In this document: in pieces, positions 8,623-28,008 of the stretch
Position numbering within the stretch: the stretch's first letter is position 1
How the letters are laid out: each line of letters starts with the position of its first letter
Source: Alphaproteobacteria bacterium
GTDB taxonomy: Bacteria > Pseudomonadota > Alphaproteobacteria > JABAAW01 > JAHZMA01
DNA length: 43,834 nucleotides
Direction: 5' to 3'
NCBI GenBank assembly: GCA_022599575.1
Contig: JAHZMA010000055.1
Location: 1-43,834, forward strand
Position numbers and translations under genes: made by a program
The notes under the pieces: generated by a model
Database searches by the model: none
What the model was told of the DNA's origin: nothing
The model's input: the letters and a program-made list of their open reading frames with translations, nothing else

Positions 8623-10516
8623 TAGTCACCTCACTTTCTTGATAATGTTTCCGCATAGAAGCCAAGCGAATGGGCGCATTACTTGAGCCATAGCCATTAT
8701 ATTTGACGCGCCTTTCAACAATTTCAAAAAAGAAACCACCCAGAAAAGGCGTGCTATAAATTTGAAAAAATTCACCATTTTCGCTTTTGCTGTAAAGAAT
8801 ATTTTCGGCCTGCATGGTTTGAATGGTTTGTTCATCAAGCGCAGTGCTGGCGGTAAGCGCATCGTAATAATGCGGTGAAATCTGTAAGCGCGGAAAATCA
8901 TTTGCCAGCAACCATTTTGATGTTTCGAAAATATCATCACTTGCCAGCGCGATATGCTGAACACCTGCTTCAAATCGCTCATCTAAAAACGCACCCGCCA
9001 GTGTTTTTGCCGATGATGCGCCATTAAGGTTAATTCTTACCTCGCCTTCGGGGCTTGCAATGCTTTGCGATTTAACTGTGCCGAATGGGTCGGCAACATC
9101 AACAATCTTTGCCTTGTGCATTTGGAATGTTGCAAGATAATAAAGCAACCATGATTGCATATCATCATAATCCATCACCAGCGATATATGGTCGATACGC
9201 CTGATACAAGCGGGCGCGGTGATGCTATTTTTTTTATGATTTTCAAATTCCTTATCATAGTCAAACTCAATATTCCATATTTTATGTAGGTCAGAATTTT
9301 CATCAATAAAATTAATAATCGTGCCGCCATCCGATTTGATTGCTGGAATAGAAACGCCATAAGTCTGCTGATTGAAAATTTCTGCACCTAACTTTTTAGC
9401 GCGTTCTACCGTTTGATTGGCATTTTCAACCCGAATGCCCATCGCGCATACCGAAGCCCCATTGCTTTTAAGATAATCTGCAACAAAGCCAGTTTTCTCG
9501 CGGTTGATAATCATTAACACCGCGCCTTGTCGCCATAATTCAACCGCCTTTTTGATATGATTTTTTTCTTTACGAAAACAAAGCGATTGAAGCATATTAG
9601 ATAATGGCTGGTAATGGTCATCATCAACAGCAAATTCAATAAATTCAAACCCTAGTGGATAGACTCGTTTGGGCAAAGCAGGCAACTTAAATTTGGTATT
9701 TTTATCAATATTCTGCACATCATCAAGCAGACTCACCAACGAACGATAGGCATCTCTTACCATTATCTTCGCCGATGTACGCGCATTATCGCGAATGCGC
9801 GAAATTGCCCACGCGCCTTGATAGCCATTGCGCGCAATCATCTGAACAAAACCTTGCAAATTCAACTCGCCCTGCCCAGGCAACAAGCTAATTTGTCTTT
9901 TTAAGAAGCGAATATCGCCATTGATTTTTGGCGCATCGGAAAGCTGAACATAAAAGATTTTGCTGCCATCAATATCGCGTAATTTTGCTGGCATCGAGCC
10001 ATCGGCAAGCGAGAAAAAACTATTCAAACATAAGCCAAAATTAGGGTGATTAACCGCAGTAACAATATCATATGCTTGCAAATCATTATTAACATATTTT
10101 GCCCATGGCGAAGCCATATAGGCGATACGCACATTATATTGCGCCGCCATTTGCGCCAATAGGGTTAAATCTTCGATTTGTTGCACCTGATTTTCCGATG
10201 TTTCCATATGTTTTGAAGCGCCAACAAGCAAGCAGTTTATATCAAGCTGTTGCATTAACTCAAATTGATAGGTAACATTTTTAAACGCTGCCTGTTTCAA
10301 ACCATCGGGCAAGCCTTCAATTTCCGAACAAGGCTGTAGAACCTCAATTGTAAGTCCCAATGATGTGATTTGTTGTTTGAGGGTTTTGATGCTGATGTTC
10401 GAACAAATAAAATCGCGTTGATGAAGCTCGATACCCTTAAAGCCCGCTTGCGCGATAATGTCAATTTTTTCCGATAGCAATCCCAAAACAGATGTGGTTG
10501 CGATTGTAAGATTCAT
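8615..10516 (-). CDS. Bifunctional TIM-barrel/HPPD-like fusion protein, 3-dehydroshikimate dehydratase (QuiC-type)
   Basis: A 633-residue fusion. Residues 1-280 form a sugar-phosphate-isomerase-like TIM barrel (AGFKGIELHQRDF near the start). Residues about 300-610 resemble 4-hydroxyphenylpyruvate dioxygenase, with the three metal ligands visible as H443 (RIDHISL), H521 (VQHIAL) and E598 (FFFEIVERR). In bacteria this fusion is the QuiC1 type of 3-dehydroshikimate dehydratase, which makes protocatechuate in quinate and shikimate breakdown; the barrel does the dehydration and the role of the HPPD-like part is less clear. The ATG at 10516 is preferred because a longer frame would run into dctM. 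It follows dctM directly and overlaps the citryl-CoA-lyase-like gene, so its substrate is probably imported by the TRAP system. No protocatechuate ring-cleavage gene is present in the window, which is odd for that function. Confidence 0.8.
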   Translation of the reverse strand: MNLTIATTSVLGLLSEKIDIIAQAGFKGIELHQRDFICSNISIKTLKQQITSLGLTIEVLQPCSEIEGLPDGLKQAAFKNVTYQFELMQQLDINCLLVGASKHMETSENQVQQIEDLTLLAQMAAQYNVRIAYMASPWAKYVNNDLQAYDIVTAVNHPNFGLCLNSFFSLADGSMPAKLRDIDGSKIFYVQLSDAPKINGDIRFLKRQISLLPGQGELNLQGFVQMIARNGYQGAWAISRIRDNARTSAKIMVRDAYRSLVSLLDDVQNIDKNTKFKLPALPKRVYPLGFEFIEFAVDDDHYQPLSNMLQSLCFRKEKNHIKKAVELWRQGAVLMIINREKTGFVADYLKSNGASVCAMGIRVENANQTVERAKKLGAEIFNQQTYGVSIPAIKSDGGTIINFIDENSDLHKIWNIEFDYDKEFENHKKNSITAPACIRRIDHISLVMDYDDMQSWLLYYLATFQMHKAKIVDVADPFGTVKSQSIASPEGEVRINLNGASSAKTLAGAFLDERFEAGVQHIALASDDIFETSKWLLANDFPRLQISPHYYDALTASTALDEQTIQTMQAENILYSKSENGEFFQIYSTPFLGGFFFEIVERRVKYNGYGSSNAPIRLASMRKHYQESEVTNG

Positions 10517-14845: not shown

Positions 14846-15496
14846 ATGGATAATAACATAACGGTTGGGTCTTCAACTTACGAAAAAATCAAGCATGATA
14901 TTATATTTGGTATATTGGCGCCCGGTAAAAAGCTAAAGCTTAATCAGCTGAAAGAAGAATATAATGCCAGCGTTTCTACCATGCGTGAGATGCTGAATCG
15001 CCTCGCCAGCGATGGTTTTGTACATGCCGAAGAACAACGTGGCTTTTTTGTTGCGTCAGTATCGTCAGATGATTTAACTGAAATTGCCAATTTGCGTATT
15101 TTGCTTGAATGCCATGCGCTTGAAACATCTATTGCCAAAGGTGATACCGAATGGGAGGGCAATTTGGTTGCCGCCCATCATAAATTGCATTTGCTAGAAC
15201 AGCGCATGTTGGCAGGTGATGAAACCGAAAAAGAAACTTGGAAACGCTATGATTGGGAATTCCATTTAGCCCTCATTCAGGCATGTGATTCCAATAATTT
15301 ATTGCGGTTGCACCGCACAATTTACGATAAATATTTGCGCTATCAGATGCTTATTCTTACCCATCGGGGGCAATTAGCGGTTGATGAACATAAGCAAATT
15401 TTTGATGCGTCGCTGGCGCGTAACACAAATATCGCGGTTGAGGTGCTAGCGCGTCATATTAGAAAAGGTCTTGAACACACAATCGCGCGTATGTGA
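14846..15496 (+). CDS. GntR-family transcriptional regulator with FCD ligand-binding domain
   Basis: A 216-residue regulator. The N-terminal winged helix (about 8-70) includes TYEKIKHDIIFGILAPGKKL and the recognition region YNASVSTMREMLNRLASDGFV, the usual GntR pattern. Residues 80-210 form an all-helical FCD domain, with metal/ligand-type His residues in the region LAAHHKLH, the EFHLALI segment and RHIRKGLEH. FCD regulators bind small carboxylates or sugar acids and are typically released from DNA by them. The gene is divergent from the dehydrogenase at 13595-14668 and next to the TRAP/dehydratase operon, so it is the probable local repressor of island A; repeats AAAATAT-N3-ATATTTT in front of three units are the likely binding sites (inference). 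Confidence 0.92.
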   Translation: MDNNITVGSSTYEKIKHDIIFGILAPGKKLKLNQLKEEYNASVSTMREMLNRLASDGFVHAEEQRGFFVASVSSDDLTEIANLRILLECHALETSIAKGDTEWEGNLVAAHHKLHLLEQRMLAGDETEKETWKRYDWEFHLALIQACDSNNLLRLHRTIYDKYLRYQMLILTHRGQLAVDEHKQIFDASLARNTNIAVEVLARHIRKGLEHTIARM

Positions 15497-15541: not shown

Positions 15542-16348
15542 TTATTGTAAAATCATACCGCCATCGATCATTAATAATTGACCCGTCATGTAATCAGATT
15601 CGCTGCTAGCAAGAAAAGAGGCAGTGCCAACAATATCTTCAGGATAGGAATAGCGTTTCATCAAAATCATATCGCGGGCTAATGTATCCATTGATTCACC
15701 CTCATTCTTAAATTTGCCAATCGCCACTAAATCCTTATCTAACTGCTCCCAAAGCTCGGTTCGCACAACGCCCGGGGCATAGCCATTCACTGTGATATTA
15801 TTGTCAACCAACGCTTTGGCGCCGCCATTTATCAATGCTTGCACGGCATGTTTAGAACAAGAATATGGCACAACATCATCAAATGCCTGACGCGATAAAA
15901 TAGACCCAACATTGATAATTTTATAAGGGCCATTTTCTTTGCCCTGTTTAATCATTTGTTTGGCAGCTTCTTGCATACATAGCAACACACCTAACGCATT
16001 GATATCCATAATTTTGTGCCAATTTTCTTCGGTAATATCTAAAAACATCAGTGGCTTATTAATACCCGCATTATTTAATATCACATTCAATGTGCCAAAC
16101 GCCTCAACTGTTGCATTGACGGCCGCTTGAATGTCGGCACGTTTGGTTACATCAAGTTTAATCGCAATGGCTTTGCCACCATCGCGATTATTGATTCTAT
16201 CAGCAACTTCTTGGCAGCCTTCAAAATTAATATCACCAACGCAAATATTTGCCCCTTGTGCGGCATAATGTTCGGCAACTGCTGCCCCCATGCCTTGCGC
16301 TGCACCAGTGATTAAACAATTTTTGCCCAATAATCTTGTCTTATCCAT
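15542..16348 (-). CDS. Short-chain dehydrogenase/reductase, acetoin/polyol dehydrogenase-like
   Basis: A 268-residue classical SDR. It has the cofactor motif TGAAQGMGAAVA (about 15-26), an Asp after strand beta-2 (CVGDIN) favouring NAD+, NNAGIN, the active-site Ser in NVGSILS, and YSCSKHA with catalytic Tyr and Lys, then the NGYAPGVVRT segment. The sequence resembles meso-2,3-butanediol/acetoin reductases and sorbitol/polyol dehydrogenases of this length. A GGAGGG ribosome site precedes the ATG at 16348. It is divergent from the ABC sugar transporter operon and likely oxidises the imported polyol or sugar. The presence of an acetoin-dehydrogenase-like E1 pair in the same block makes an acetoin link possible but not proven. 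Confidence 0.9.
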   Translation of the reverse strand: MDKTRLLGKNCLITGAAQGMGAAVAEHYAAQGANICVGDINFEGCQEVADRINNRDGGKAIAIKLDVTKRADIQAAVNATVEAFGTLNVILNNAGINKPLMFLDITEENWHKIMDINALGVLLCMQEAAKQMIKQGKENGPYKIINVGSILSRQAFDDVVPYSCSKHAVQALINGGAKALVDNNITVNGYAPGVVRTELWEQLDKDLVAIGKFKNEGESMDTLARDMILMKRYSYPEDIVGTASFLASSESDYMTGQLLMIDGGMILQ

Positions 16349-16761
16349 AAAACCCTCCGCTTTATAATAAATAGCTGGTTATTTTTATCTCATATCGATA
16401 AAGTAGAAAGACATGGTGTCATTATTCATAATGCGTTACTATTTGAAAATTATCCATTTTGAATAAAAAAAATCCATTATGGATAAGTTAGACGGTGAAT
16501 TTATGTTACCTTCCTGCAATGATTGACCTGTTGAACATGTTTTACGGTAATTTTGATGGTTGACCATTTAATTATCTAAAAGCATCGCAGAAATATCTTT
16601 GCTGAATATTTATGATGATTTTTTTGGCAATGATTTTTTTACTTTGTGTCATGTTTAAGTAACTGAAGAGATAACAGTTTTTACAAAATGTTTGATTAAA
16701 AAACATTCAAAATGTGAAGATGTTATCGAAGAACATGTTAATTATCAACTGGAGGTATTCT
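16349..16761. other. Divergent regulatory region, 413 bp, between SDR and ABC-importer genes
   Basis: No gene is supported here. The region must hold promoters for the SDR gene (minus) and the binding-protein gene (plus). It contains the tandem TTATCCA-type inverted repeats at 16450-16486. The 8-bp palindrome AACATGTT occurs twice, at 16534-16541 and 16732-16739; both resemble, but do not fully match, the island C operator. Confidence 0.6.
16450..16486. promoter_or_regulatory. Tandem inverted repeats TTATCCA-N3-TGGATAA, candidate operator of island B
   Basis: Two imperfect copies are arranged with centres 20 bp apart: TTATCCA-TTT-TGAATAA at 16450-16466 and AAATCCA-TTA-TGGATAA at 16470-16486. 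A perfect version with 8-bp arms is present at 27990-28008 before the M24 hydrolase gene. The spacing of two helical turns fits a pair of dimers on one face of the DNA. Which regulator binds is unknown; the winged-helix/SBP fusion at 21545-23344 is the local candidate. Confidence 0.5.
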
Positions 16762-17784
16762 ATGGTTTTAACAAAATTTTTATCACGGCTAGCGTGCGTT
16801 ATCGTATGTTTCTCAGCAACGATTGCACATGCGGCTGACCCTTCGATTATATCTTTCAACGGCCCTGCTGGTGAAGCATATATCGGCAAATTTATCAAAG
16901 GCATTAAAGCGACAGCAAAGCTTAATGGCTATGATATAAAAGTATATGAAAATCAATTTAATCAAGCTGAACAAGATCAACAAGTGCAGCAGGTATTGGC
17001 AGCGGGCAAATTGCCTGATGTGTTTATCTGGTGGCCTTCTGATGCAACAGCAGGTTTGGGGTCGCTTCGTGCCTTGCATAAAACAGGTGTGCCCGTATTG
17101 AAGATTAATCAGCTGCCCAATGACCAAGATAAGAAATATATCTTTGGTTATGCTGGCCCTGATGACCGCTTGCGTGCCCGTAATGCTGGTTATATGCTAC
17201 GTGAGGCGGCGGCAAAGAAAAAAGCCGAAGGTGGCAAAGGCTTTAATGTGATTGTGTTATCTTATCCGCATTCTTATGGTGGCTATGGTCTATCTATCAA
17301 TGCTTTCAAAGATGCTATTGCTGGTTCTGGTTTGAAAATCATCGGTGATGTTGATGAAGGTTTTGGTCAGGCAAATGGTTATAAAGGTGCGGCAAAATTG
17401 ATTGCGAAAGTGAAAAAGCAAGGCATTCATTTTGTTTATGGCATGGATGACGCTATTTTGACTGGTGGCATTAAGGCACTAGAAGAAGCGGGCTATAAAA
17501 TGGGCAAAGATGTGATTGCTGTTGGCACAGTATGTAATGGTGATAAGCAATTAATCGAAGAAGGCAAACAATTCGGCACCACATTGCAATCTCCGCTACA
17601 TGAAGGGCAGTTGGCAATCAAATTGGTTGGTGAATATCTAAAAACGGGTAAGTTGAAAAATTATATCAATTTCACACCTAACCCCTCTGTTACGTTAGAT
17701 AATCTTGAAACCACTTCTTTAAGAGGTTTTGATGGCAAGCTATATGGCATTGACGAACTTTGTTCAGGTGCATGGAGTGGCTAA
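16762..17784 (+). CDS. ABC sugar transporter periplasmic-binding protein, RbsB-like
   Basis: A 340-residue type I periplasmic-binding protein. A GGAGG ribosome site at 16751-16755 supports ATG 16762 rather than the upstream ATG at 16714. Signal peptide MVLTKFLSRLACVIVCFSA... ends near AHAA-DPS. The mature part has the two alternating alpha/beta lobes of the ribose/galactose-binding family, including GFGQANGYKGAAKLI, the hinge-region VYGMDDAILTGGIKALEEAGY and VGTVCNG. It captures a sugar or polyol in the periplasm for the ATPase and two permeases encoded next. A strong hairpin follows the stop codon, probably limiting read-through into the ATPase gene. Ligand unknown. Confidence 0.93.
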   Translation: MVLTKFLSRLACVIVCFSATIAHAADPSIISFNGPAGEAYIGKFIKGIKATAKLNGYDIKVYENQFNQAEQDQQVQQVLAAGKLPDVFIWWPSDATAGLGSLRALHKTGVPVLKINQLPNDQDKKYIFGYAGPDDRLRARNAGYMLREAAAKKKAEGGKGFNVIVLSYPHSYGGYGLSINAFKDAIAGSGLKIIGDVDEGFGQANGYKGAAKLIAKVKKQGIHFVYGMDDAILTGGIKALEEAGYKMGKDVIAVGTVCNGDKQLIEEGKQFGTTLQSPLHEGQLAIKLVGEYLKTGKLKNYINFTPNPSVTLDNLETTSLRGFDGKLYGIDELCSGAWSG

Positions 17785-17892: not shown

Positions 17893-19407
17893 ATGCCGTC
17901 ATTGTTAGAGTTGAAAAATATTAAAAGGAATTTTGGCGCAATTCATGCCCTAAAAGGTGTGAATTTTTCCATTAATGCGGGCGAGATTGTTGGATTGGTT
18001 GGTGAGAATGGTGCAGGCAAATCAACTTTAGTCAAAATATTAAGCGGCTTTGATAATGGTTATAGTGGAGAATGTATTCTTGACGGCAATGTAATAAAAT
18101 TTTCCAGCCCCGATAAAGCTGAAGCGATGGGCATTGCGATTGCCCAACAAGAATTAAGCCTTATCCCCGCGATGAGTGTTGCAGAAAATATCTTTTTAGC
18201 GGGGCATAATGTGCCGATATTTTCAACAAAAAAATCTTTGGCACAAAAAGCACGTCCCTTTCTTGAAGAAGTAGGATTACATAATATTAATCCTTTAACA
18301 ACAGTAGAGCGTTTATCGGTTGGTGAACAACATTTGGTGGAGGTGGCAAGATTGATAGCCCATGATGCCCGTATTTTGGTACTAGATGAACCAACTGCCG
18401 CATTAGGCGATAGCGATAGTATTCGTATTATGGATATGGTCAAACGGCTTGCCTCACGCGGTAAAGCCATTATCTATGTGAGCCATAGATTAGATGAAAT
18501 TTTTAAGATTTGCCATTCGGTAACAGTCTTGCGTGATGGCGAAAGTCAGGCAAGCCTGCCCGCAAGCGAGTTGAATACTGAAAGTTTGATTACATTAATG
18601 CTTGGGCGGTCTTTAAGTAAGTTATTTCCCAAACGCACAGCACCCCCTGTAAGCAAGGAAAGTGACATATCGCTTGAAGTGATAGATGTTTGGGCAGATG
18701 GTTTGATTGAACCTGTTAGCTTTCACATAAAATCTGGTGAAATTTTAGGGCTTGCTGGGCAGTTAGGCAGTGGTTCAGCAGAATTATTAGCCGCGATTGC
18801 TGGCGCGCATAAAAGCCGTTCGGGCATGATTAATGTTGCGGGCAAACATCAATTTATGCCCAAACGTCCGTACCATACGATTAAACATAAAATTGCATAT
18901 TGTTCTGAAGATAGAAAATATGATGGCTTGTTTCTGGGGCGGCCAATTGTTGAAAATTTAACCGCACCATCGTTAGAAACAATTTCTCAGTTAGGATTGC
19001 TTCATCACAAAAAAGAAGAAACCAAAGCAACAGAACATGCGCGTAATTTCACCGTTGATATTGCCCGTTTGAAAGCGGAAGCGGGTGTGTTGAGTGGTGG
19101 TAATCAGCAAAAAGTTGCGCTTGGCAAATGGCTATCGATTGCGCCGAAAATCATTTTGGTGAATGAACCCACACGCGGGGTAGATGTAGGGGCAAAGGCC
19201 GAAATTTATCAAAAATTACGCGACCTTGCCGATGAAGGTGCGGCGATTGTAATGTCATCAACCGATATTCTTGAAATCACCAACCTGCCTGATAGGGTGC
19301 TTACCTTTTATCGTGGTATGCATATCGGCGAAGTGAGTGGTAAAACACTAACAAACTATAATATTTTGAAACAAATTACGGATCCCTTCAATGAAGCGGG
19401 CATGTAG
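17893..19407 (+). CDS. ABC sugar transporter ATPase with two nucleotide-binding domains, RbsA-like
   Basis: A 504-residue duplicated ATPase of the ribose/xylose type. The first half has Walker A GENGAGKST, signature LSVGEQHLVEVAR and Walker B ILVLDEPTAAL. The second half has the naturally divergent Walker A GQLGSGSAELL, signature LSGGNQQKVALGK and Walker B IILVNEPTRGVDVG. This asymmetry is normal for RbsA/MglA proteins. It powers sugar uptake with the two permeases at 19426-21520. No strong ribosome site is visible before the ATG, so lower translation than the binding protein is likely. Confidence 0.94.
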   Translation: MPSLLELKNIKRNFGAIHALKGVNFSINAGEIVGLVGENGAGKSTLVKILSGFDNGYSGECILDGNVIKFSSPDKAEAMGIAIAQQELSLIPAMSVAENIFLAGHNVPIFSTKKSLAQKARPFLEEVGLHNINPLTTVERLSVGEQHLVEVARLIAHDARILVLDEPTAALGDSDSIRIMDMVKRLASRGKAIIYVSHRLDEIFKICHSVTVLRDGESQASLPASELNTESLITLMLGRSLSKLFPKRTAPPVSKESDISLEVIDVWADGLIEPVSFHIKSGEILGLAGQLGSGSAELLAAIAGAHKSRSGMINVAGKHQFMPKRPYHTIKHKIAYCSEDRKYDGLFLGRPIVENLTAPSLETISQLGLLHHKKEETKATEHARNFTVDIARLKAEAGVLSGGNQQKVALGKWLSIAPKIILVNEPTRGVDVGAKAEIYQKLRDLADEGAAIVMSSTDILEITNLPDRVLTFYRGMHIGEVSGKTLTNYNILKQITDPFNEAGM

Positions 19408-19425: not shown

Positions 19426-20451
19426 ATGTCACAAACAATGATGCAACAATTAAGCGATAGATTGCAACAATATTTACCCCGTCATGCGGCGGCGGGGTCG
19501 CGCATTGCTTATATTATGGTTGCGTTATTTGTGGTTGTTTTTGTTTTTGGCATGGTAACAGCACCCAATTTTTTAACGATTTTTAATTTCAAAACAGTCA
19601 TTCGTGATGCTGCTTTGGTTGGCATTATGGCGATAGGACTCACCTTTGTAACATTATCAGGCAATTTCTTTTTACTATCATTAAAAGAAACCGCTGCTTT
19701 ATCTATTGTTGCTTTTGCCACATTTATGGCGGCAGGCTATGGCTTTGAATTATCATTTTTGTTCACGATGGGGATTGCCGCTGTTGCAGGTGCTTTGCAG
19801 GGTGTTCTTATCGGATTTGGTGGCAATCCAATTGTGGTTACTTTGGGCGCGGCAGGATTGTTTTTTGGCATTGGCTCGTGGTGGAGCGATAATTTGGTTG
19901 TTTCTTTTCGCCGCCCACATGGTGCGGAATGGCTTGGCACAGGGTCATTTTTAGGATTGCCCAATATCACCATCGCCTTTATTGTGATTGCGATTGTTGC
20001 AGAATTATCGCTACGCTATACAACATTTGGCAGGCAAGTCTATCTTATCGGTGATAACCGTGCCGCTGGGCGTGCCACAGGACATGAAAATTTTGCGATG
20101 GCAATTAAAGTGTGCATCATCGCATCTTTATGCGCTGCTTTTGTCGCCATTGCCTTTGCTGCACAAGTTTCAAGCGCGCATGTCAATTATTTTTCTTCTT
20201 CATTCGGCTCATCAGGTGATATGACTATTTTGGTGATTGCCACAGTGATGGTGGGGGGCAATTCCATTATGGGCGGTTATGGTTCTACCTTGCGTTCAAG
20301 TATTGGCGCGTTGTTTATTTCATCAGTTGATAATATGATGGTGTTGCACGGCTTTAATTCTGGACCGCGGGTGTTAGCAGTGGGGGTCATGATTGTTTTC
20401 AGTATTGTTGTGTTTGCGCTATTAAGGCGTGGCAGCAGAAGTCAGGAGTAA
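19426..20451 (+). CDS. ABC sugar transporter permease, RbsC-like (first)
   Basis: A 341-residue inner-membrane permease with about eight to ten hydrophobic segments. It shows the family pattern GIMAIGLTFVTLSGNFFLLSL near the start, FGGNPIVVTLGAAGLFFG in the middle, YTTFGRQVYLIGDNRAAGRATG (cytoplasmic coupling loop) and MVGGNSIMGGYGSTLRS near the end. An AAAGGGGC ribosome site precedes the ATG. It follows the ATPase by 18 bp and would form a heterodimeric channel with the next gene product. Confidence 0.93.
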   Translation: MSQTMMQQLSDRLQQYLPRHAAAGSRIAYIMVALFVVVFVFGMVTAPNFLTIFNFKTVIRDAALVGIMAIGLTFVTLSGNFFLLSLKETAALSIVAFATFMAAGYGFELSFLFTMGIAAVAGALQGVLIGFGGNPIVVTLGAAGLFFGIGSWWSDNLVVSFRRPHGAEWLGTGSFLGLPNITIAFIVIAIVAELSLRYTTFGRQVYLIGDNRAAGRATGHENFAMAIKVCIIASLCAAFVAIAFAAQVSSAHVNYFSSSFGSSGDMTILVIATVMVGGNSIMGGYGSTLRSSIGALFISSVDNMMVLHGFNSGPRVLAVGVMIVFSIVVFALLRRGSRSQE

Positions 20452-20461
20452 AATAAAAGCG

Positions 20462-21520
20462 ATGTTAAATAATTTACTTATTAATAAAAATCCATTTGGT
20501 GCTGTGCGTGATTGGATAACGCGCAATCCAGATTTAGCATTTTCTATTTTACTGGCGGCATGTGTCTATAGCTATTTCGCCTTCAGCAGCGAATTATTCA
20601 TGACTCACCGCACCCATTTTGCGATTATGGAACGGTTTGCAGTGTTAGGGCTGGTAGGGCTTGCGCTTACCTTGTGTATTATCGCTGGCGAGATTGATTT
20701 ATCAATCGGTTCTAACGCAGCTTTGGCCGCAGTTGTGGTGGTGCGCTTCACCGATGCGTTAGGTGCATTTAACGCATTGGCGATTGCGCTACTGATTTCA
20801 ACATTTATTGGCATCGTGCAAGGCTATTTTATTGCTTACTTAAAAGTACGCGCCATTGTTTTAACAGTTGGCACGTTAATGCTATTGCGCGGTATATCAT
20901 TATTTGTAGCGGAAGAAAAAACAGTGATGCTGACTAATTTTGATGTGCCAGATTTTATTCAAACAAAGATGTTTGTCTATTTCTCACCAGCCAGCATAGT
21001 GGTGATAATGGTCTTTATTATCATTGCCATTTTTATGAATTATACGCGGTTTGGGCGCGAAATTTATGCGATTGGTGGGGCGCGCAAAGAGGCACTAGCA
21101 TCAGGTGTTAACTTAAAGCGGCCGATGATTATTGTGTTCACCATTTCAGGATTTTGTGCTGGATTAGGCGGTGCCATTATCGGGTTACGGTCGGGCACAG
21201 CACAGGCGCTTGGTTTGCAATATTTGCTATTGGCAGGCACTGTTGCCGCCTTTATCGGTGGGGCGAGTATTTTAGGTGGCAAAGGCGGCGTGATTGGCGC
21301 AATGATTGGTACATTAACAGTCAATTTTCTTAATACGGGTTTGGTGTTTAATGTAACGCCTTCTTTCATGGTGCAGCTTTATTTAGGAATTTTGTTAATT
21401 GTAGTCATTATTTTTCAAACGGGTTCGCGTCTTTACGATAATTATCAACGCCGTCGCTCGATTTTGATGGCGGTTGATAAGACACGCAAGAAGTTATTAG
21501 CTAAAAAGCAACATTTATGA
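20462..21520 (+). CDS. ABC sugar transporter permease, RbsC-like (second)
   Basis: A 353-residue permease of the same family, with LALTLCIIAGEIDLSIGSNAAL, the inner loop NYTRFGREIYAIGGARKEALASGV and FIGGASILGGKGGVIGAMIG. The ATG at 20462 follows the stop of the first permease by 10 bp and an AGGAG site overlaps that stop region, so I prefer it to a GTG at 20429 inside the previous gene. Two distinct permeases plus a dual ATPase make a full RbsABC-like importer. The C-terminal tail is rich in Lys and Arg. Confidence 0.92.
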   Translation: MLNNLLINKNPFGAVRDWITRNPDLAFSILLAACVYSYFAFSSELFMTHRTHFAIMERFAVLGLVGLALTLCIIAGEIDLSIGSNAALAAVVVVRFTDALGAFNALAIALLISTFIGIVQGYFIAYLKVRAIVLTVGTLMLLRGISLFVAEEKTVMLTNFDVPDFIQTKMFVYFSPASIVVIMVFIIIAIFMNYTRFGREIYAIGGARKEALASGVNLKRPMIIVFTISGFCAGLGGAIIGLRSGTAQALGLQYLLLAGTVAAFIGGASILGGKGGVIGAMIGTLTVNFLNTGLVFNVTPSFMVQLYLGILLIVVIIFQTGSRLYDNYQRRRSILMAVDKTRKKLLAKKQHL

Positions 21521-21544: not shown

Positions 21545-23344
21545 ATGGTAATGAATAAAACTCACTCTTATTCTCATTCGCGCGAACCTGAAGGGCCTTT
21601 TGAAAATACGGATATGAATAATATTCGCAATGGTAATCTTGATAGTAAATTATCGCAAACAATTAACCTTATCGAACAGCTAGATGATGAAATGCGGACC
21701 AACCTTTCAATCAAGCAAGGCTATAGCGAAATTAAAATATTAACCAGTTTGGTGCGAAATCATTTATTAGGAAAGATGACAACGCGTTCCGTGTTATCGG
21801 CAAGTTCGGGGCTATCTTATGGCACATCATTTCGGGCGATTGAAGATTTGGTTGAACGCGGGCTTATCAGCAAACGTTCCCGAAGCGTGACTGGCAAATC
21901 TTTTTCGCTTCACCCAACACCGAAATTATTAGCGGAATGGGAAATATTATCAAGGCGCCTCTATTCATTGATTAATACAAGTTTTTTGTTGAGCAATGAG
22001 CATAATTATGAAAAGCTGCAAGGCTATTTTTATGGTGCCAGCTATTATGAAGGGGATGTGATTAACACGCATATCACACTTGACCATCGCTTATTTATGG
22101 CGGGGCAGTTGCGTATTTTAGCGCATGCCGATCCTTGTTTTATGGCGATGGGAAAATTAAAAAGACAGTTAGAAGTCATCTTTGGGGCATCTATTAAAAT
22201 TCGCGCGCTTTCCATTGATAAATTGCGTGATGAAATTATCGCCAATGCGAAACGCAAACATTCTAAATATGATTTGATTGCATGTGATTTTCCATGGTTT
22301 GGTGAATTGGCAGAAAAAAAATGCTTAATGAATTTAGATAGTCTTATTCAATCATCAGCACTGAAAATGGAAGATTTTCATGAAAGCGCATTAGCAACAT
22401 CGCGCTATCAGGGCAAGCAATATGGTTTGCCAATTCTTTCCACCCCTGAATTGCTATTTGTGCGGCAAGATATGCTAGATAAGCATGATTTGCCATTACC
22501 CAAAACCACTGATGATTTATTACAGACTGCCAAAAAACTGCATAAGCCGCATCAAGAGGTTTCAGGAATTGCGTGGAATGCCGCCAAAGGCACGCCGCTA
22601 GGGCATTCATTTTTATATATGATGGCAAGTTTTGGTGGCGCAGTGATAAATTTATCAACATCTGTGTCAGGATTTGATGCTGAAAATGTCAGTGGCGAGA
22701 ATTATCGCCCGCAATTTGATAGCGATGCGGCAAAACAGGCGGCTGAATATTTGAAAGAGCTTATCACCTATTCACCAGATACGATTTTATCTATGTCGTG
22801 GTACGAGCGCACGCGTTGCTATGCTGAGGGTCATGCGGCAATGGTTTATTCTACAACTTTGCTTGCGCCGATGATTGAAGGTAATAAAGATTCCCCTGCT
22901 TATAAAAATACAATCTATTTGCCGTTACCACATGGTGCGGCAGGAAAAAATCTTGCGCCGATTGGTGGCTATGGGTTGGCAATCCCTGCCAATATTGAGC
23001 AGGAGCGGATTCATTCAATTTGGACAATTTTGCAGTTGTTGGTATCGCCGCAAGCCAGTAAATTATATATTGAAAATGGCAGTTTCGTCTCATCTTGCTA
23101 TGCTGTAGGCAACGACCCACAAGTAAAAGAAATAACTTTGTTGCCCTCTTATGTTAATAAATTATCGCGTTCAGGAGAATTGCAAATGTGGCCACGCCCC
23201 CCGATAGCGGAAATAACGCAAATCATTAATATGGTGGGTGTTGAAGCTCATGATATGTTGCGCGGTGTTACAACCATCAAGCAAGGGCTTAACAAATTGC
23301 AAAATGATGTTGATAAATTGATGCGCGCCCATCATCATTATTAA
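21545..23344 (+). CDS. Winged-helix regulator fused to solute-binding-protein domain (cytoplasmic)
   Basis: A 599-residue protein without a signal peptide. Residues about 60-125 look like a winged helix: SEIKILTSLVRNHLLGKMTTRSVLSASSG, the recognition-type segment GLSYGTSFRAIEDLVERGLI, and the wing KRSRSVTGKSFSL. Residues about 170-590 resemble an extracellular solute-binding protein family 1 (MalE/UgpB-like) fold: LRILAHADPCFMAMGKLKRQLEVIFG, KYDLIACDFPWFGELAEKKCLMNLDSLI, YQGKQYGLPILSTPELLFVRQDMLDKHDLPLPKTTDDLLQTAKKL and MSWYERTRCYAEGHAAMVYSTT. So a sugar-binding domain has been placed behind a DNA-binding domain, giving a one-component sensor that would detect sugar in the cytoplasm. It sits between the sugar importer and the E1/E2 genes. 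DNA target not known; TTATCCA-N3-TGGATAA repeats are candidates. Confidence 0.8.
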   Translation: MVMNKTHSYSHSREPEGPFENTDMNNIRNGNLDSKLSQTINLIEQLDDEMRTNLSIKQGYSEIKILTSLVRNHLLGKMTTRSVLSASSGLSYGTSFRAIEDLVERGLISKRSRSVTGKSFSLHPTPKLLAEWEILSRRLYSLINTSFLLSNEHNYEKLQGYFYGASYYEGDVINTHITLDHRLFMAGQLRILAHADPCFMAMGKLKRQLEVIFGASIKIRALSIDKLRDEIIANAKRKHSKYDLIACDFPWFGELAEKKCLMNLDSLIQSSALKMEDFHESALATSRYQGKQYGLPILSTPELLFVRQDMLDKHDLPLPKTTDDLLQTAKKLHKPHQEVSGIAWNAAKGTPLGHSFLYMMASFGGAVINLSTSVSGFDAENVSGENYRPQFDSDAAKQAAEYLKELITYSPDTILSMSWYERTRCYAEGHAAMVYSTTLLAPMIEGNKDSPAYKNTIYLPLPHGAAGKNLAPIGGYGLAIPANIEQERIHSIWTILQLLVSPQASKLYIENGSFVSSCYAVGNDPQVKEITLLPSYVNKLSRSGELQMWPRPPIAEITQIINMVGVEAHDMLRGVTTIKQGLNKLQNDVDKLMRAHHHY

Positions 23345-23392: not shown

Positions 23393-24394
23393 ATGCCGAA
23401 AAGAACACCGAAAAGAACAATCGATAAAACCGATAATACCGAAAAATATTTGCAAATGTTGCGTCAAATGCTGCGAATTCGGGCGTTTGAAGAAAATGCC
23501 AATAAATTGTATTTAAGCGCAAAAATGCCGGGACTTACCCATATGTATAGCGGGCAAGAGGCTGTTGCGGTGGGCATTTGCGAGGCATTGGAGACCAGCG
23601 ATTATATCACCAGCACACATCGCGGACACGGGCATTGCGTTGCCAAAGGCGCGAATATCAAGCAAATGTTTTGCGAATTATTAGGCAAGGAAGAAGGTTA
23701 TTGTCGCGGCAAGGGTGGCTCTATGCACATTGCCGACCAAGCCAATGGCAATCTAGGCGCCAATGCGATTGTGGGTGGCAGTGCGGGCATTGCCACAGGG
23801 GCTGCTTTTTCAGCAAAATATTTGCAAAAAAATGATGTAGCCGTTTGTTTTTTTGGTGATGGTGCGCTAGGGCAGGGCTTGCTGTATGAAGTCATGAATA
23901 TGGCATCTTTGTGGAAATTGCCAGTGATTTACGCATGTGAGAATAATCTTTATGGCGAATATACCCATGTTTCTGAAATGGCAGCAGGCGAATTAACAGC
24001 ACGGGCAAAAGCCTTTAACATTGAAAGTTTTGACGTTGATGGGCAAGATGTGTTAGCAGTGAATCAATTAACTCAAAATTTGGTTGCGCGCGCCCGTAAA
24101 GGTGAAGGGCCATTCTTTATTGTGCTAAATACCTATCGCTATTTTGGGCATCATGTGGGTGATATTAATCGCGACTATTATCGCTCAAAACAAGAAGAGC
24201 AAGAATGGAAAGAAAAGCGTGACCCGATTACCAATTTTAGCGCATGGATGCTTGATAATAACATGATTGATGCGAGCGAACTTGCCGATATTAAAACAAA
24301 AATCAGCAGTGAAGCAAGCGATGCTGTTGCCTATGCGCTTGATGCTGCTTACCCCGATGAAGCAGAAGTTACATTGCATGTCTATGCTGAATAA
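23393..24394 (+). CDS. 2-oxoacid/acetoin dehydrogenase E1 component, alpha subunit
   Basis: A 333-residue TPP-dependent E1 alpha subunit. It has MYSGQEAVAVGICEALE, the TPP-binding GDGALGQGLLYEVMNMASLWKLPVIYACENN, and the GGSMHIADQANGNLGANAIVGGS segment with phosphorylation-loop-like residues and conserved His in THRGHGH. Together with the beta subunit it decarboxylates a 2-oxoacid or cleaves acetoin and passes the acyl group to a lipoyl carrier. The length and sequence fit acetoin dehydrogenase AcoA or pyruvate dehydrogenase PdhA about equally. It starts 48 bp after the regulator gene and is followed by the beta subunit after 22 bp. Confidence 0.92.
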   Translation: MPKRTPKRTIDKTDNTEKYLQMLRQMLRIRAFEENANKLYLSAKMPGLTHMYSGQEAVAVGICEALETSDYITSTHRGHGHCVAKGANIKQMFCELLGKEEGYCRGKGGSMHIADQANGNLGANAIVGGSAGIATGAAFSAKYLQKNDVAVCFFGDGALGQGLLYEVMNMASLWKLPVIYACENNLYGEYTHVSEMAAGELTARAKAFNIESFDVDGQDVLAVNQLTQNLVARARKGEGPFFIVLNTYRYFGHHVGDINRDYYRSKQEEQEWKEKRDPITNFSAWMLDNNMIDASELADIKTKISSEASDAVAYALDAAYPDEAEVTLHVYAE

Positions 24395-24416
24395 TCGCTT
24401 AATGAGGAATGTTTGA

Positions 24417-25400
24417 ATGAGAGAAATTACTTTATCACAGGCGGTGAATGAAGCCATCGCTGAAGAGATGCGCCGCGATGAAACGGTATGGCTATTAGGC
24501 GAAGATGTTGCAGAAGCAGGCACGCCCTTTAAGGTTTTATCAGGATTAGTGGAAGAATTTGGCACAAGGCGGGTTGTTGATACTCCTATATCTGAACCCG
24601 GTTTTACGGGCATTGCAGTGGGTGCAGCCATGACGGGCACCCGTCCGATTGTTGATTTAATGTTTGGCGATTTTCTAACATTGGTGATGGACCAAATGGT
24701 GAATCAAGCCGCAAAAATTCATTATATGTCGGGTGGCAAGCTTAATGTGCCGATGGTGTTACGCACCAATATGGGCGCAACCAGACGTTCGGCGGCACAG
24801 CATAGTCAAAGTCTGCATGCTTGGCTGTGCCATATTCCGGGTTTGAAAATCGCGATGCCATCAAATGCTTATGAAGCAAAAGGACTGTTAAAAACTGCCA
24901 TTCGCGATAATAATCCAGTGGTGATTATAGAAGATAAATTAATGTATCAGGAAAAATTCTTCGTGCCAGAAGAAGAATATATGATTGAATTTGGCAAAGC
25001 AAATATTTTGCGCTATGGCGATGATATTAGTTTTATTGCCACCAGCTCGATGGTGCAAGTGGCAGAACAAGCCGCAGAAATCCTTGCCACTGAAAATATA
25101 ATGGCGGAAGTGATTGACCCACGAACATTAGTGCCATTAGATGAAGAAACAATTTTAGAATCGGTAAAGAAAACATCTAGGGTGATTGTGGTTGATGAGG
25201 GGCATAAAAATTATGGCATTACCGCAGAGATTGCATCGCGTATTGCCGAAAAAGCATTTTACTATCTTGATGCACCCGTCACAAGGTTAGGCGCAATGGA
25301 TGTGCCAATTCCTTTTTCGCCAGTGCTAGAAGATTTAACTGTGCCAACGCCAGCATTGCTTGCTGATAAAGCGCGCCTATTATGCAAGGGCAAGCAATAA
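24417..25400 (+). CDS. 2-oxoacid/acetoin dehydrogenase E1 component, beta subunit
   Basis: A 327-residue E1 beta subunit starting MREITLSQAVNEAIAEEMRRDETVWLLGEDV, with the TPP-activating Glu region, SEPGFTGIAVGAAMTGTRPIVDLMFGDF, and RRSAAQHSQSLHAWLCHIPG including the conserved active-site His. The C-terminal transketolase-type domain contains VIDPRTLVPLDEETI. A GAGGAATG ribosome site lies before the ATG. It ends one base before the lipoyl-protein gene. No dihydrolipoamide dehydrogenase (E3) gene is next to the set, so E3 must come from elsewhere on the chromosome. Confidence 0.93.
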   Translation: MREITLSQAVNEAIAEEMRRDETVWLLGEDVAEAGTPFKVLSGLVEEFGTRRVVDTPISEPGFTGIAVGAAMTGTRPIVDLMFGDFLTLVMDQMVNQAAKIHYMSGGKLNVPMVLRTNMGATRRSAAQHSQSLHAWLCHIPGLKIAMPSNAYEAKGLLKTAIRDNNPVVIIEDKLMYQEKFFVPEEEYMIEFGKANILRYGDDISFIATSSMVQVAEQAAEILATENIMAEVIDPRTLVPLDEETILESVKKTSRVIVVDEGHKNYGITAEIASRIAEKAFYYLDAPVTRLGAMDVPIPFSPVLEDLTVPTPALLADKARLLCKGKQ

Positions 25401-25401
25401 A

Positions 25402-26496
25402 ATGGCGCATTCTATCATCATGCCAGCATTGGGCATGACCCAAAATACGGGCATCATCGTGTTATGGCATAAAAAATTGGGTGATAAAGTCACGGCAAAT
25501 GATATTTTGCTAGATGTGGAAACCGATAAAAGCACGATGGAAGTGGAAGCGGGTTATGATGGGATTTTGGCATCGATAAAGGGTGCTGTTAATGTGCCGA
25601 TTGATGTGGGCGATGTGATTGCATTGATTGCTGAAAATGATGATGAGGCACAAAAAATCATGACTCAAAATGCCGAACCCCCAACAAATCCCCTAACAAA
25701 TCCCGCAACTATTGCCAAACCTGCCATTCAACCTAGCATGATGGCGATAACAAAAAAAAGATCGCCTGCAAAAAGACCGCCTGCTGTGGCAAAAGCCCCA
25801 TCAAAAAATGATGCGCCAACAGATGATGCGCCAAAAAATGATGCGCGCCAACAATATGATGGTAAAATTCTTATATCGCCTAAAGCAAGAAAATTGGCAA
25901 AAACACGCGGCATTAATGTACAACAAGCCGTTCAAAAAGGCTTGAAAATGCCAATCCATGTTGCTGATATTGAAAATTTGGCATCTGCAACCAGATATGA
26001 TAATCAGTTGGCGGTGAGTGCTTGCGTGACTATCCAAAAATTAGCTGAATTAAGAAATATGGTAATGGCATATAACAATCAAGAAATTGCGCTATCTTTT
26101 ATTGTGGCGCATATATTTTGCCATTGTTACCGCCATATGAAAGGGCGTGAAAATATCAATGTGCATGTCCAAACTTTCGGAGAACAGCAAAATATTGATA
26201 TCGTTTTAGATAATCCAGACTTATCAGGGCTTGCTGATGCTAGGGTAGAAAGCAAAGAACAAGCGGATATTATCGTGGTGGATATCAGCCAAACATCGCT
26301 TAATAATATGAAACCAACGCATGTGGAAATACCATTATTAATCATGAGCGCCCCCAAATATCACAAAAGTGAGCGCGCACAACATATCCGCTTAACGCTA
26401 TGGTGTTATGAACAAGATTTGGCGATGAATCAAGCGATTGACTTGCTAGAATATATCAATGAAATGATTGATGAGCCATTATTGTTATTGCTATAA
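25402..26496 (+). CDS. Lipoyl-domain E2-like protein with degenerate acyltransferase domain
   Basis: A 364-residue E2-like protein. Residues 1-78 form a lipoyl domain with lipoylation Lys K43 in DVETDKSTMEVEA. Residues 85-155 are a Pro/Ala/Lys linker with repeats like KNDAPTDDAPKNDA. Residues 156-193 match the peripheral subunit-binding domain (ISPKARKLAKTRGINVQQAV). Residues about 200-364 should be the catalytic core, but only about 165 residues remain against some 230, and the active-site DHRxxDG motif is missing; CYEQDLAMNQ at 335-344 stands in its place. The start at ATG 25402, immediately after the E1 beta stop, gives the complete lipoyl domain. It may still carry acyl groups and bind E1/E3 while having lost CoA transfer, or have another acceptor. 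Confidence 0.85.
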   Translation: MAHSIIMPALGMTQNTGIIVLWHKKLGDKVTANDILLDVETDKSTMEVEAGYDGILASIKGAVNVPIDVGDVIALIAENDDEAQKIMTQNAEPPTNPLTNPATIAKPAIQPSMMAITKKRSPAKRPPAVAKAPSKNDAPTDDAPKNDARQQYDGKILISPKARKLAKTRGINVQQAVQKGLKMPIHVADIENLASATRYDNQLAVSACVTIQKLAELRNMVMAYNNQEIALSFIVAHIFCHCYRHMKGRENINVHVQTFGEQQNIDIVLDNPDLSGLADARVESKEQADIIVVDISQTSLNNMKPTHVEIPLLIMSAPKYHKSERAQHIRLTLWCYEQDLAMNQAIDLLEYINEMIDEPLLLLL

Positions 26497-26573: not shown

Positions 26574-27914
26574 TTAAGCAGAAAAATACGCATTGGCAAT
26601 CGGCAATTCTTCCGCAGGGAATAGGGTAATCACTTTACAACCCTTATCGGTTACCACCACTTCTTCTTCAATGCGCGCCGCTGAATAGCCATCTTTGGCA
26701 GGGCAGTAAGTTTCCAGCGCAAACACCATACCCGTTTCAATAATCATCGGATTTTCCATAGATACCAAACGTGAGATAATGGGGCGTTCATGTAATGCCA
26801 AACCAAGCCCATGCCCAAACTGCAAACCAAAAGCAGCCATTTCACTGGGGAAGCCAAACTCTTCTGCCTTTGGCCATACTGCCGCCACTTTATCGGTGCT
26901 AACACCCGGCTTAATCATCGCAATTGATGCATCTAACCATTCGCGGGCTTGTTTATAGGCATCGCGTTGCACAGGCGTTGATTTGCCAACATTTAAGGTA
27001 CGATAATAGCAAGTGCGGTAGCCTTGATAAGATTGCAAAATATCAAAAAATGCTTGGTCGCCCGGGCGAAAAATTCTATCGGTGAAATTATGCGGATGTG
27101 GGTTGCAACGTTCCCCTGAAATGGCGTTAATGGCTTCCACATCATCTGATCCCAATTCGTAAAGTAATTTATTGGCTTTGGCGACAATATCATTCTCGCG
27201 CACCCCTGGCTTCATTTCTTCATAAATCATGTGATACACACCATCTACCATTGCGGCGGCTTGATTGAGCAAAATCAACTCATCTTGATTTTTAATTTCG
27301 CGCGCGCTTAACATCACTTGCTGGCCATCAACAATATTCATTCCCGCTTTTTGCAATTCAAAGAACATTGCGGTTTCGGCATAATCCACGCCAATTTGCA
27401 TATCAGCCACGCCAGCTGTTTTTAATAAATCCATGATTTCTTTGGCATGATTTTTCATCAGCCCAACATCTGGCGGTACAGTGCCACGCAACCCAACCAT
27501 ACCAGGGCGGCAATTATCAGGCTGTAGCCAGTCGCAATTTTGTTTATGATGCACAGCGGCCGAGCCAAAATCCCAAACAATCGGTTCTTCATCGCCTGCT
27601 AATAGGCAAAATCTGCTCATCTTATCGCGTTCCCACTCACCGATTTTGGTGGAAGAAACATAGCGGATATTATTGGTATCAAATAATAACAACGCACCCA
27701 AGCCTGAATTTTTCAAAGCCTGCCGTGCACGTGCCAAACGATATTTACGCAAGCGGTCATGGTCGACCCGTTTTTCAAAATCAACCGAAATAAAACCGGG
27801 CGATGGCAGATGTTTTTGCCAATTCCAATTTGTTTCCAGATGATGCGGTTTTAGCAGTAAAGGTGATAGAGCAGGGTTTTTAGAAACTTCGCCCCATAAA
27901 TGATTTTCGCACAT
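26574..27914 (-). CDS. M24-family metallopeptidase-like hydrolase (Xaa-Pro peptidase/creatinase/DddP superfamily)
   Basis: A 446-residue protein with the N-terminal creatinase-type domain (about 50-200) and the C-terminal pita-bread fold. The expected metal ligands are D291 (FFDILQS), H368 (FGHGLGLALHERP), E401 (ALETY) and E416 (ARIEEEV), all present; but the second Asp of the usual D-x10-D pair is replaced by C302 (GYRTCYYRT). It therefore may bind one metal, bind it differently, or work without metal as creatinase does. The length matches DMSP lyase DddP, a member of this superfamily, but the DddP D-x-D pair is not seen, so I do not call it DddP. A GAGGAAAC ribosome site precedes the ATG. 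It is convergent to the E1/E2 operon and has a perfect TTATCCA-type repeat upstream. Confidence 0.85.
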   Translation of the reverse strand: MCENHLWGEVSKNPALSPLLLKPHHLETNWNWQKHLPSPGFISVDFEKRVDHDRLRKYRLARARQALKNSGLGALLLFDTNNIRYVSSTKIGEWERDKMSRFCLLAGDEEPIVWDFGSAAVHHKQNCDWLQPDNCRPGMVGLRGTVPPDVGLMKNHAKEIMDLLKTAGVADMQIGVDYAETAMFFELQKAGMNIVDGQQVMLSAREIKNQDELILLNQAAAMVDGVYHMIYEEMKPGVRENDIVAKANKLLYELGSDDVEAINAISGERCNPHPHNFTDRIFRPGDQAFFDILQSYQGYRTCYYRTLNVGKSTPVQRDAYKQAREWLDASIAMIKPGVSTDKVAAVWPKAEEFGFPSEMAAFGLQFGHGLGLALHERPIISRLVSMENPMIIETGMVFALETYCPAKDGYSAARIEEEVVVTDKGCKVITLFPAEELPIANAYFSA

Positions 27915-27989: not shown

Positions 27990-28008
27990 TTTATCCAATA
28001 TGGATAAA
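27990..28008. promoter_or_regulatory. Perfect inverted repeat TTTATCCA-ATA-TGGATAAA before the M24 gene
   Basis: Eight-base perfect arms around ATA, 76-94 bp upstream of the M24 hydrolase ATG at 27914. The same motif in imperfect tandem form is at 16450-16486, before the ABC importer and SDR genes. It links the hydrolase to island B rather than to the adjacent TTT transporter. Confidence 0.6.

Follow-up and report, generated by a model that had tools for sequence, protein, structure and literature searches.

The window, by which we mean the whole 43,834-nucleotide stretch of DNA analyzed here, carries a ribose-type importer operon with a putative regulator gene among its members (Table 1). 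The operon is headed by the gene of an RbsB-class binding protein, whose ATG at 16762 is preceded by GGAGG (the longest open reading frame starts at 16714). Because only 24 bases separate the regulator gene from the second permease gene and 48 bases separate it from the E1 alpha gene, the regulator is an internal gene of this operon. A preliminary description of the locus had claimed an open reading frame of 599 residues and two different binding-protein folds in one operon. Indeed, 21545 to 23344 on the plus strand translates to 599 amino acids from an ATG, and the binding protein of the importer matches Peripla_BP_4 (type I fold), whereas the regulator matches SBP_bac_1 (type II fold).

The enzymes encoded nearby, an acetoin-reductase-like dehydrogenase and acetoin/pyruvate-dehydrogenase-type E1-E1-E2 proteins, suggest together with aldehyde dehydrogenase a route from a vicinal diol via an acyloin to acyl-CoA plus aldehyde. 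This reading draws on window genes at 15542 to 16348 and 23393 to 26496 and on the aldehyde dehydrogenase genes of related loci. The M24-like protein scores 118 bits against the NCBIfam model for the dimethylsulfoniopropionate (DMSP) lyase DddP, for which the cut-off is 600, and in many genomes an orthologue (68 to 76% identity) accompanies the regulator cluster.

Table 1. Features of the locus, in window coordinates
Feature	Position	Strand	Basis and remarks
GntR/FCD regulator	14846-15496		1 kb from candidate operator
Short-chain dehydrogenase (SDR)	15542..16348	-	Nearest acetoin reductase, below cut-off; divergent from importer, shares operator region
Tandem operator candidate, upstream copy	16452..16464	+	ATCCATTTTGAAT, one mismatch; 20 bp to next copy
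Tandem operator candidate, downstream copy	16472..16484	+	ATCCATTATGGAT; between divergent SDR gene and importer operon
Importer binding protein, RbsB class, type I fold	16762..17784	+	Peripla_BP_4; near neighbor of regulator in 30 loci
Importer ATPase, two ABC domains	17893..19407	+	Open reading frame, domain match, neighborhood
Importer permease (BPD_transp_2)	19426..20451	+	Open reading frame, domain match, neighborhood
Importer permease (BPD_transp_2)	20429..21520	+	Open reading frame, domain match, neighborhood
Putative regulator gene	21545..23344	+	ATG start, 599 amino acids, predicted winged helix plus family-1 solute-binding domain
Predicted N-terminal winged helix	Residues about 60-125, window about 21722-21919	+	AlphaFold2, profile, fold comparison
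Family-1 solute-binding domain	Residues about 185-595 (also 184-595), window about 22097-23329	+	Pfam, fold comparison
2-Oxoacid/acetoin dehydrogenase-type E1 alpha	23393..24394	+	Open reading frame, domain match, neighborhood
E1 beta	24417..25400	+	Open reading frame, neighborhood
E2-like lipoyl protein	25360..26496	+	Domain match
M24-peptidase-like gene	26574..27914	-	Nearest NCBIfam model DddP; candidate operator upstream
Single operator candidate	27993..28005	-	ATCCATATTGGAT; centered 85 bp upstream of M24-peptidase-like gene

Distribution of the family and its gene neighborhoods

Full-length relatives of the regulator are present in 7 of 385 genomes of the class. While back-translation of the single protein retrieved no relative, alignment-based searching did, and a profile-guided scan of one genome per GTDB species, a search for the same architecture that the preliminary description had proposed, identified 445 stretches encoding relatives. 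We kept 80 of these, which are 41 to 55% identical over nearly the full length. Many of the hosts are marine or soil bacteria; they belong to Rhodobacterales, Hyphomicrobiales, SAR116, Halomonas, Marinobacterium, Devosia, and others. Two of them (L034 and L043) lie on metagenome-assembled contigs labeled Bacteroidetes and SAR202; their clusters look alphaproteobacterial, and the labels are probably binning errors. When 398 genomes of the phylum were searched with a profile built from the N-terminal domain alone, every hit was an open frame of 596 to 714 residues; the fusion is therefore stable, and the N-terminal domain was not seen alone at that threshold.

An importer component of the ribose type lies no more than seven open reading frames away in 61 of the 67 loci that have at least 4 kb on both sides. 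The gene order of divergent SDR, RbsB, ATPase, permease, permease, and regulator, followed by the M24-like gene, E1, E1, E2, and aldehyde dehydrogenase, recurs in many genomes. Elsewhere, the regulator gene is transcribed divergently from the gene of a second RbsB-class type or, in Halomonas, stands last in an operon of importer and dioxygenase-pathway-like genes, and a smaller group of regulators adjoins importers with family-1 binding proteins. In the class sample, a close relative of the importer protein of the window is found in 4 of 385 genomes, all 4 of which also carry the regulator. In the Halomonas-group clusters (L108, L112, and L113), the operon of the ribose-type importer also includes genes for catechol-type dioxygenase-like, iron-ADH-like, amidohydrolase, and malonic semialdehyde reductase proteins, so that a sugar-type importer is oddly paired with what resembles a ring-cleavage pathway.

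Predicted structure of the regulator

An AlphaFold2 model of the whole protein, built on a 51-sequence alignment, has a pLDDT of 85.4 and a pTM of 0.79, with high confidence outside the first 30 residues and a linker at 151 to 169 (means over 16 blocks). Structure prediction for both domains, suggested in the preliminary description, thus yields a winged helix of the helix-turn-helix (HTH) type and a MalE-like fold. The segment from 60 to 125, taken there for DNA binding, is where the model places a MarR-like winged helix: helices at 63 to 74, 81 to 87, and 92 to 104 and strands at 108 to 112 and 120 to 124, with a long helix (126 to 150) after the two-stranded wing. The pLDDT of this block is mostly 82 to 89, falling to 72 over the wing loop, and the same set of elements is obtained when the N-terminal part is folded by itself.

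Profile searches with the window protein alone give no HTH family above the cut-off (best E value of 0.07, range 0.07 to 0.25), the MarR-type profile falling below it at 0.25; 20 of the 51 aligned family members match MarR_2 at E values up to 0.1, the best being 8.2e-7. The N-terminal domain folded alone has MarR-family proteins as its best Foldseek matches (5eri, ZitR, and SlyA with DNA), and a structural aligner places MepR first, with a Z score of 9.4, just above many other winged helices. The MarR likeness is distant (10 to 21% identity, Foldseek E value of about 5e-4); long flanking helices accompany the winged helix, and a Z score of about 9 reflects a fold common to other winged helices too. 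We consider the predicted winged helix secure and its assignment as MarR-like likely. Conservation within the domain is highest in the wing, RxRTxTGKSFSLHP, where the region R-x(5)-G-K/R-S-F-S-x-H-P is invariant across the family.

The remainder of the protein bears out its earlier description as a family 1 solute-binding region. SBP_bac_1 (Pfam PF01547) matches residues 218 to 504 with an E value of 5.7e-25 and 89.4 bits against a cut-off of 26, and it is matched by all 51 family members; SBP_bac_8 also matches the C-terminal two-thirds of the regulator. The nearest solved protein by sequence is 5iai (4.2e-25), whose fold match (Foldseek E value of 4.5e-29; Z score of 46.3 over 395 residues, 2.4 Å root mean square deviation) indicates a MalE-like type II fold. 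Next in the structural comparison are Thermotoga maritima MalE3 (Z score of 41.9) and SmoF (Z score of 41.4). These family-1 importer solute-binding proteins share the fold at 16 to 23% identity over the whole domain; unlike the window protein, they are exported and lack a DNA-binding domain.

A palindrome conserved upstream of regulator and importer genes

The aligned intergenic regions between SDR and RbsB genes contain one conserved block. In an unbiased count of 2,816 palindromes (all 256 four-base half-sites with gaps of 0 to 10), TCCA-N3-TGGA ranks first upstream of the regulator, where it is found in 29 of 53 non-redundant sequences and the perfect palindrome is absent from about 45%. 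The importer binding-protein gene gives the same result: in the sequences upstream of it, this palindrome again ranks first of the 2,816 (21 of 35 non-redundant sequences). The ranks below are taken by its own overlapping variants, and the first unrelated palindrome reaches a count of 8 in each set. Tandem copies are spaced by 20 bp in 19 of 24 non-redundant RbsB-type promoters and by 21 bp in 8 of 10 promoters of the other type; reversed sequences, used as a control, have no tandem pairs of the same spacing. The proximal copies are mostly centered 84 to 98 bp before the importer start codon, with a longer leader of 284 bp in the window.

Two DNA stretches that the preliminary description had singled out, 16450 to 16486 and 27990 to 28008, both contain this palindrome. 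The exact pattern occurs three times in the 2.3-Mb genome, two of them in this cluster. Allowing one mismatch, the window holds 3 copies, compared with 3.1 expected by chance, so the evidence for an operator lies in conservation and place. Regulons cannot be called across whole genomes with the 15-base, one-mismatch pattern, which is too permissive: in some genomes the reversed control matched just as often. Most genomes have no palindrome before the M24-like gene. Promoter scans next to the candidate operators gave no convincing promoter. By eye, a TTGACC-N17-GGTAAT pair lies at 16523 to 16551, 45 bases downstream of the nearer operator; it failed the threshold of the scan itself, and its placement downstream of the candidate operator would suit activation. 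Two perfect TCCA-N3-TGGA palindromes also lie inside the 3' part of the regulator coding sequence (positions 9425 and 9558 of locus L022, with the same places in L023 to L029 and L048). Since they encode conserved residues, we set them aside as operators; codon conservation most likely accounts for them.

Similar sites occur in other lineages. In a second alphaproteobacterial family (three genomes, with regulators 34% identical), ATATTCA-N3-TGAATAT, with the half-site TTCA, lies in the intergenic region of regulator and importer, exactly 74 bp from the importer start in all three genomes. Five of six Halomonas genomes carry ACCA-N3-TGGT in the importer promoter and the other one carries TCCA-N3-TGGA, which is also the Marinobacterium site. 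The CA-N3-TG core and the spacing are thus kept from alpha- to gammaproteobacteria, with drift in the outer bases, a pattern to be expected if regulators and sites each form a single family.

The palindrome might instead belong to another regulator, such as the GntR/FCD protein of the window, with the winged-helix protein serving as a sensor or accessory factor without binding this site itself. That protein is encoded 1 kb from the candidate operator, and palindromic sites are typical of its family in general. However, the palindrome and the winged-helix protein co-occur across alpha- and gammaproteobacteria in clusters with different enzymes, and the palindrome also precedes the regulator gene itself. 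Because all the loci searched hold a single, distant homologue of the GntR protein (26% identity), it is an unlikely owner of the site, and we regard this alternative as improbable.

Probable ligand binding and cellular location

Across the 51 sequences, which come from different orders, the solute-binding domain has many invariant positions (for example, W251, P296, N345, W419, R422, G474, and G475), and this argues for a retained binding function. Binding domains can lose their ligands in evolution, and the domain could then serve dimerization or interaction only. Weighed against these invariant residues and an alignment to family-1 solute-binding proteins, including sugar-bound structures, that spans the whole length, a role of this kind seems very improbable.

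The hydropathy of the N terminus (first 45 residues) peaks at 0.31 in the regulator, compared with 2.59 in the RbsB-class binding protein of the same operon. Among 87 family members, the highest value is 1.34, whereas 27 of 30 RbsB-type proteins of the same loci exceed 1.6. By this simple measure, a signal peptide or lipobox-like hydrophobic start, including one that might have been missed in the window protein, is found in none of the 87 members, in line with the earlier statement that the protein lacks a signal peptide. Many relatives carry a hydrophilic motif, PEGP(F/Y), near the N terminus; it precedes the winged helix and falls in a predicted disordered region (residues 15 to 19 in the window protein). 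Because the N terminus lacks signal-like hydropathy and many relatives have this hydrophilic motif, the regulator is very probably cytoplasmic. An exported solute-binding protein with an unusual N-terminal extension, the reading of public plasmid records that label relatives "extracellular solute-binding protein," agrees with an SBP_bac_1 match well above the cut-off but deserves almost no credence, given the hydropathy contrast with the RbsB-type proteins, the predicted winged helix with its invariant wing region in that extension, and an importer that already has its own binding protein of another family.

The preliminary description had proposed a cytoplasmic sugar sensor. The location holds; the sugar is less certain, since the clusters differ in their enzymes even though the closest solved structures are of proteins that bind sugars or sugar-like solutes. 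The gene product, a secreted sugar-binding protein according to databases, is very probably an intracellular DNA-binding switch whose binding domain, of the kind used by transporters, senses a sugar-like molecule.

Discussion

We favor, with a probability of roughly 0.86, a cytoplasmic one-component regulator whose winged helix would read TCCA-N3-TGGA and whose MalE-like domain would sense a solute, together controlling the importer operon. DNA binding is predicted from the structural model and from footprinting of aligned sequences. In the mechanism that we propose, the MarR-like winged helix, probably dimeric, would recognize the palindrome, and two dimers would usually sit side by side, two helical turns apart, before the importer operon. 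The MalE-like domain would close on a sugar-like solute brought in by the ribose-type importer, or on a breakdown product of it, and this closing would alter DNA binding. The genes controlled would be the importer operon, including the regulator itself and the E1/E2 genes, and probably also the divergent dehydrogenase and the M24-like gene. We infer the binding of the palindrome by the regulator, as well as its dimer state, its ligand, and its activating or repressing effect.

Several known systems share parts of this arrangement. The MarR-family proteins MepR, SlyA, and ZitR have a winged helix with long flanking helices like the N-terminal domain of the window protein but lack its solute-binding domain. 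The LacI family likewise has a sensor domain borrowed from a periplasmic binding protein; it combines a type I fold with a LacI HTH, whereas the window protein has neither, and none of the 51 members matches a LacI HTH or type I binding-protein domain. LysR-type regulators join a winged helix to a smaller type II binding-protein fold. The window protein shares that combination, but its sensor is full-size and MalE-like, at about 400 residues, and no match to HTH_1 or LysR_substrate was found in the 51 members.

Closest in general plan are SgrR of Escherichia coli and its homologue DsvR of Vibrio cholerae, in which an HTH at the N terminus precedes a C-terminal SBP_bac_5 domain (PMC13060122). 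Their solute-binding domain is thus of family 5, whereas that of the window protein is of family 1, and none of the 51 members matches SgrR_N or SBP_bac_5 at E values up to 0.1. Another difference from SgrR and DsvR is the candidate site, in which copies of a palindrome stand in tandem at 20 to 21 bp. By this comparison, the window protein would work like SgrR yet is not SgrR, being built from different domain families.

A MalE-like fold behind a winged helix had been called rare in the preliminary description, a word that proves too strong because hundreds of species have the architecture and SgrR and the LysR-type regulators are precedents for a winged helix on a type II fold. Fusions of SBP_bac_1 to further HTH types, for example GntR in Bacillota, may be recorded in domain databases. 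A search of the open-access literature, in which absence is weak evidence, found SgrR/DsvR but no article describing SBP_bac_1 fused to a winged helix. The general plan is therefore already known from SgrR/DsvR, and the window family consists of widespread one-component regulators that are apparently undescribed. We think it probable that they form a widespread Pseudomonadota family, so far undescribed and misnamed as secreted, in which a MarR-like winged helix is joined to a full-size MalE-like sensor, with TCCA-N3-TGGA or close variants bound as tandem dimers two helical turns apart, each member controlling an importer of the other fold.

If this is true, hundreds of genes annotated as secreted binding proteins would become cytoplasmic sensors, and their reassignment would alter how many transporters are counted, and how regulons are mapped, in abundant marine bacteria (SAR116, Rhodobacterales, and the G035 lineage). 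The operator would offer a direct handle on which genes respond. Further, the ligand-driven closing of MalE-like domains is very well understood, so the family would provide a clear case for how a hinge motion becomes a change in DNA binding, and a MalE-like sensor would also serve the building of biosensors.
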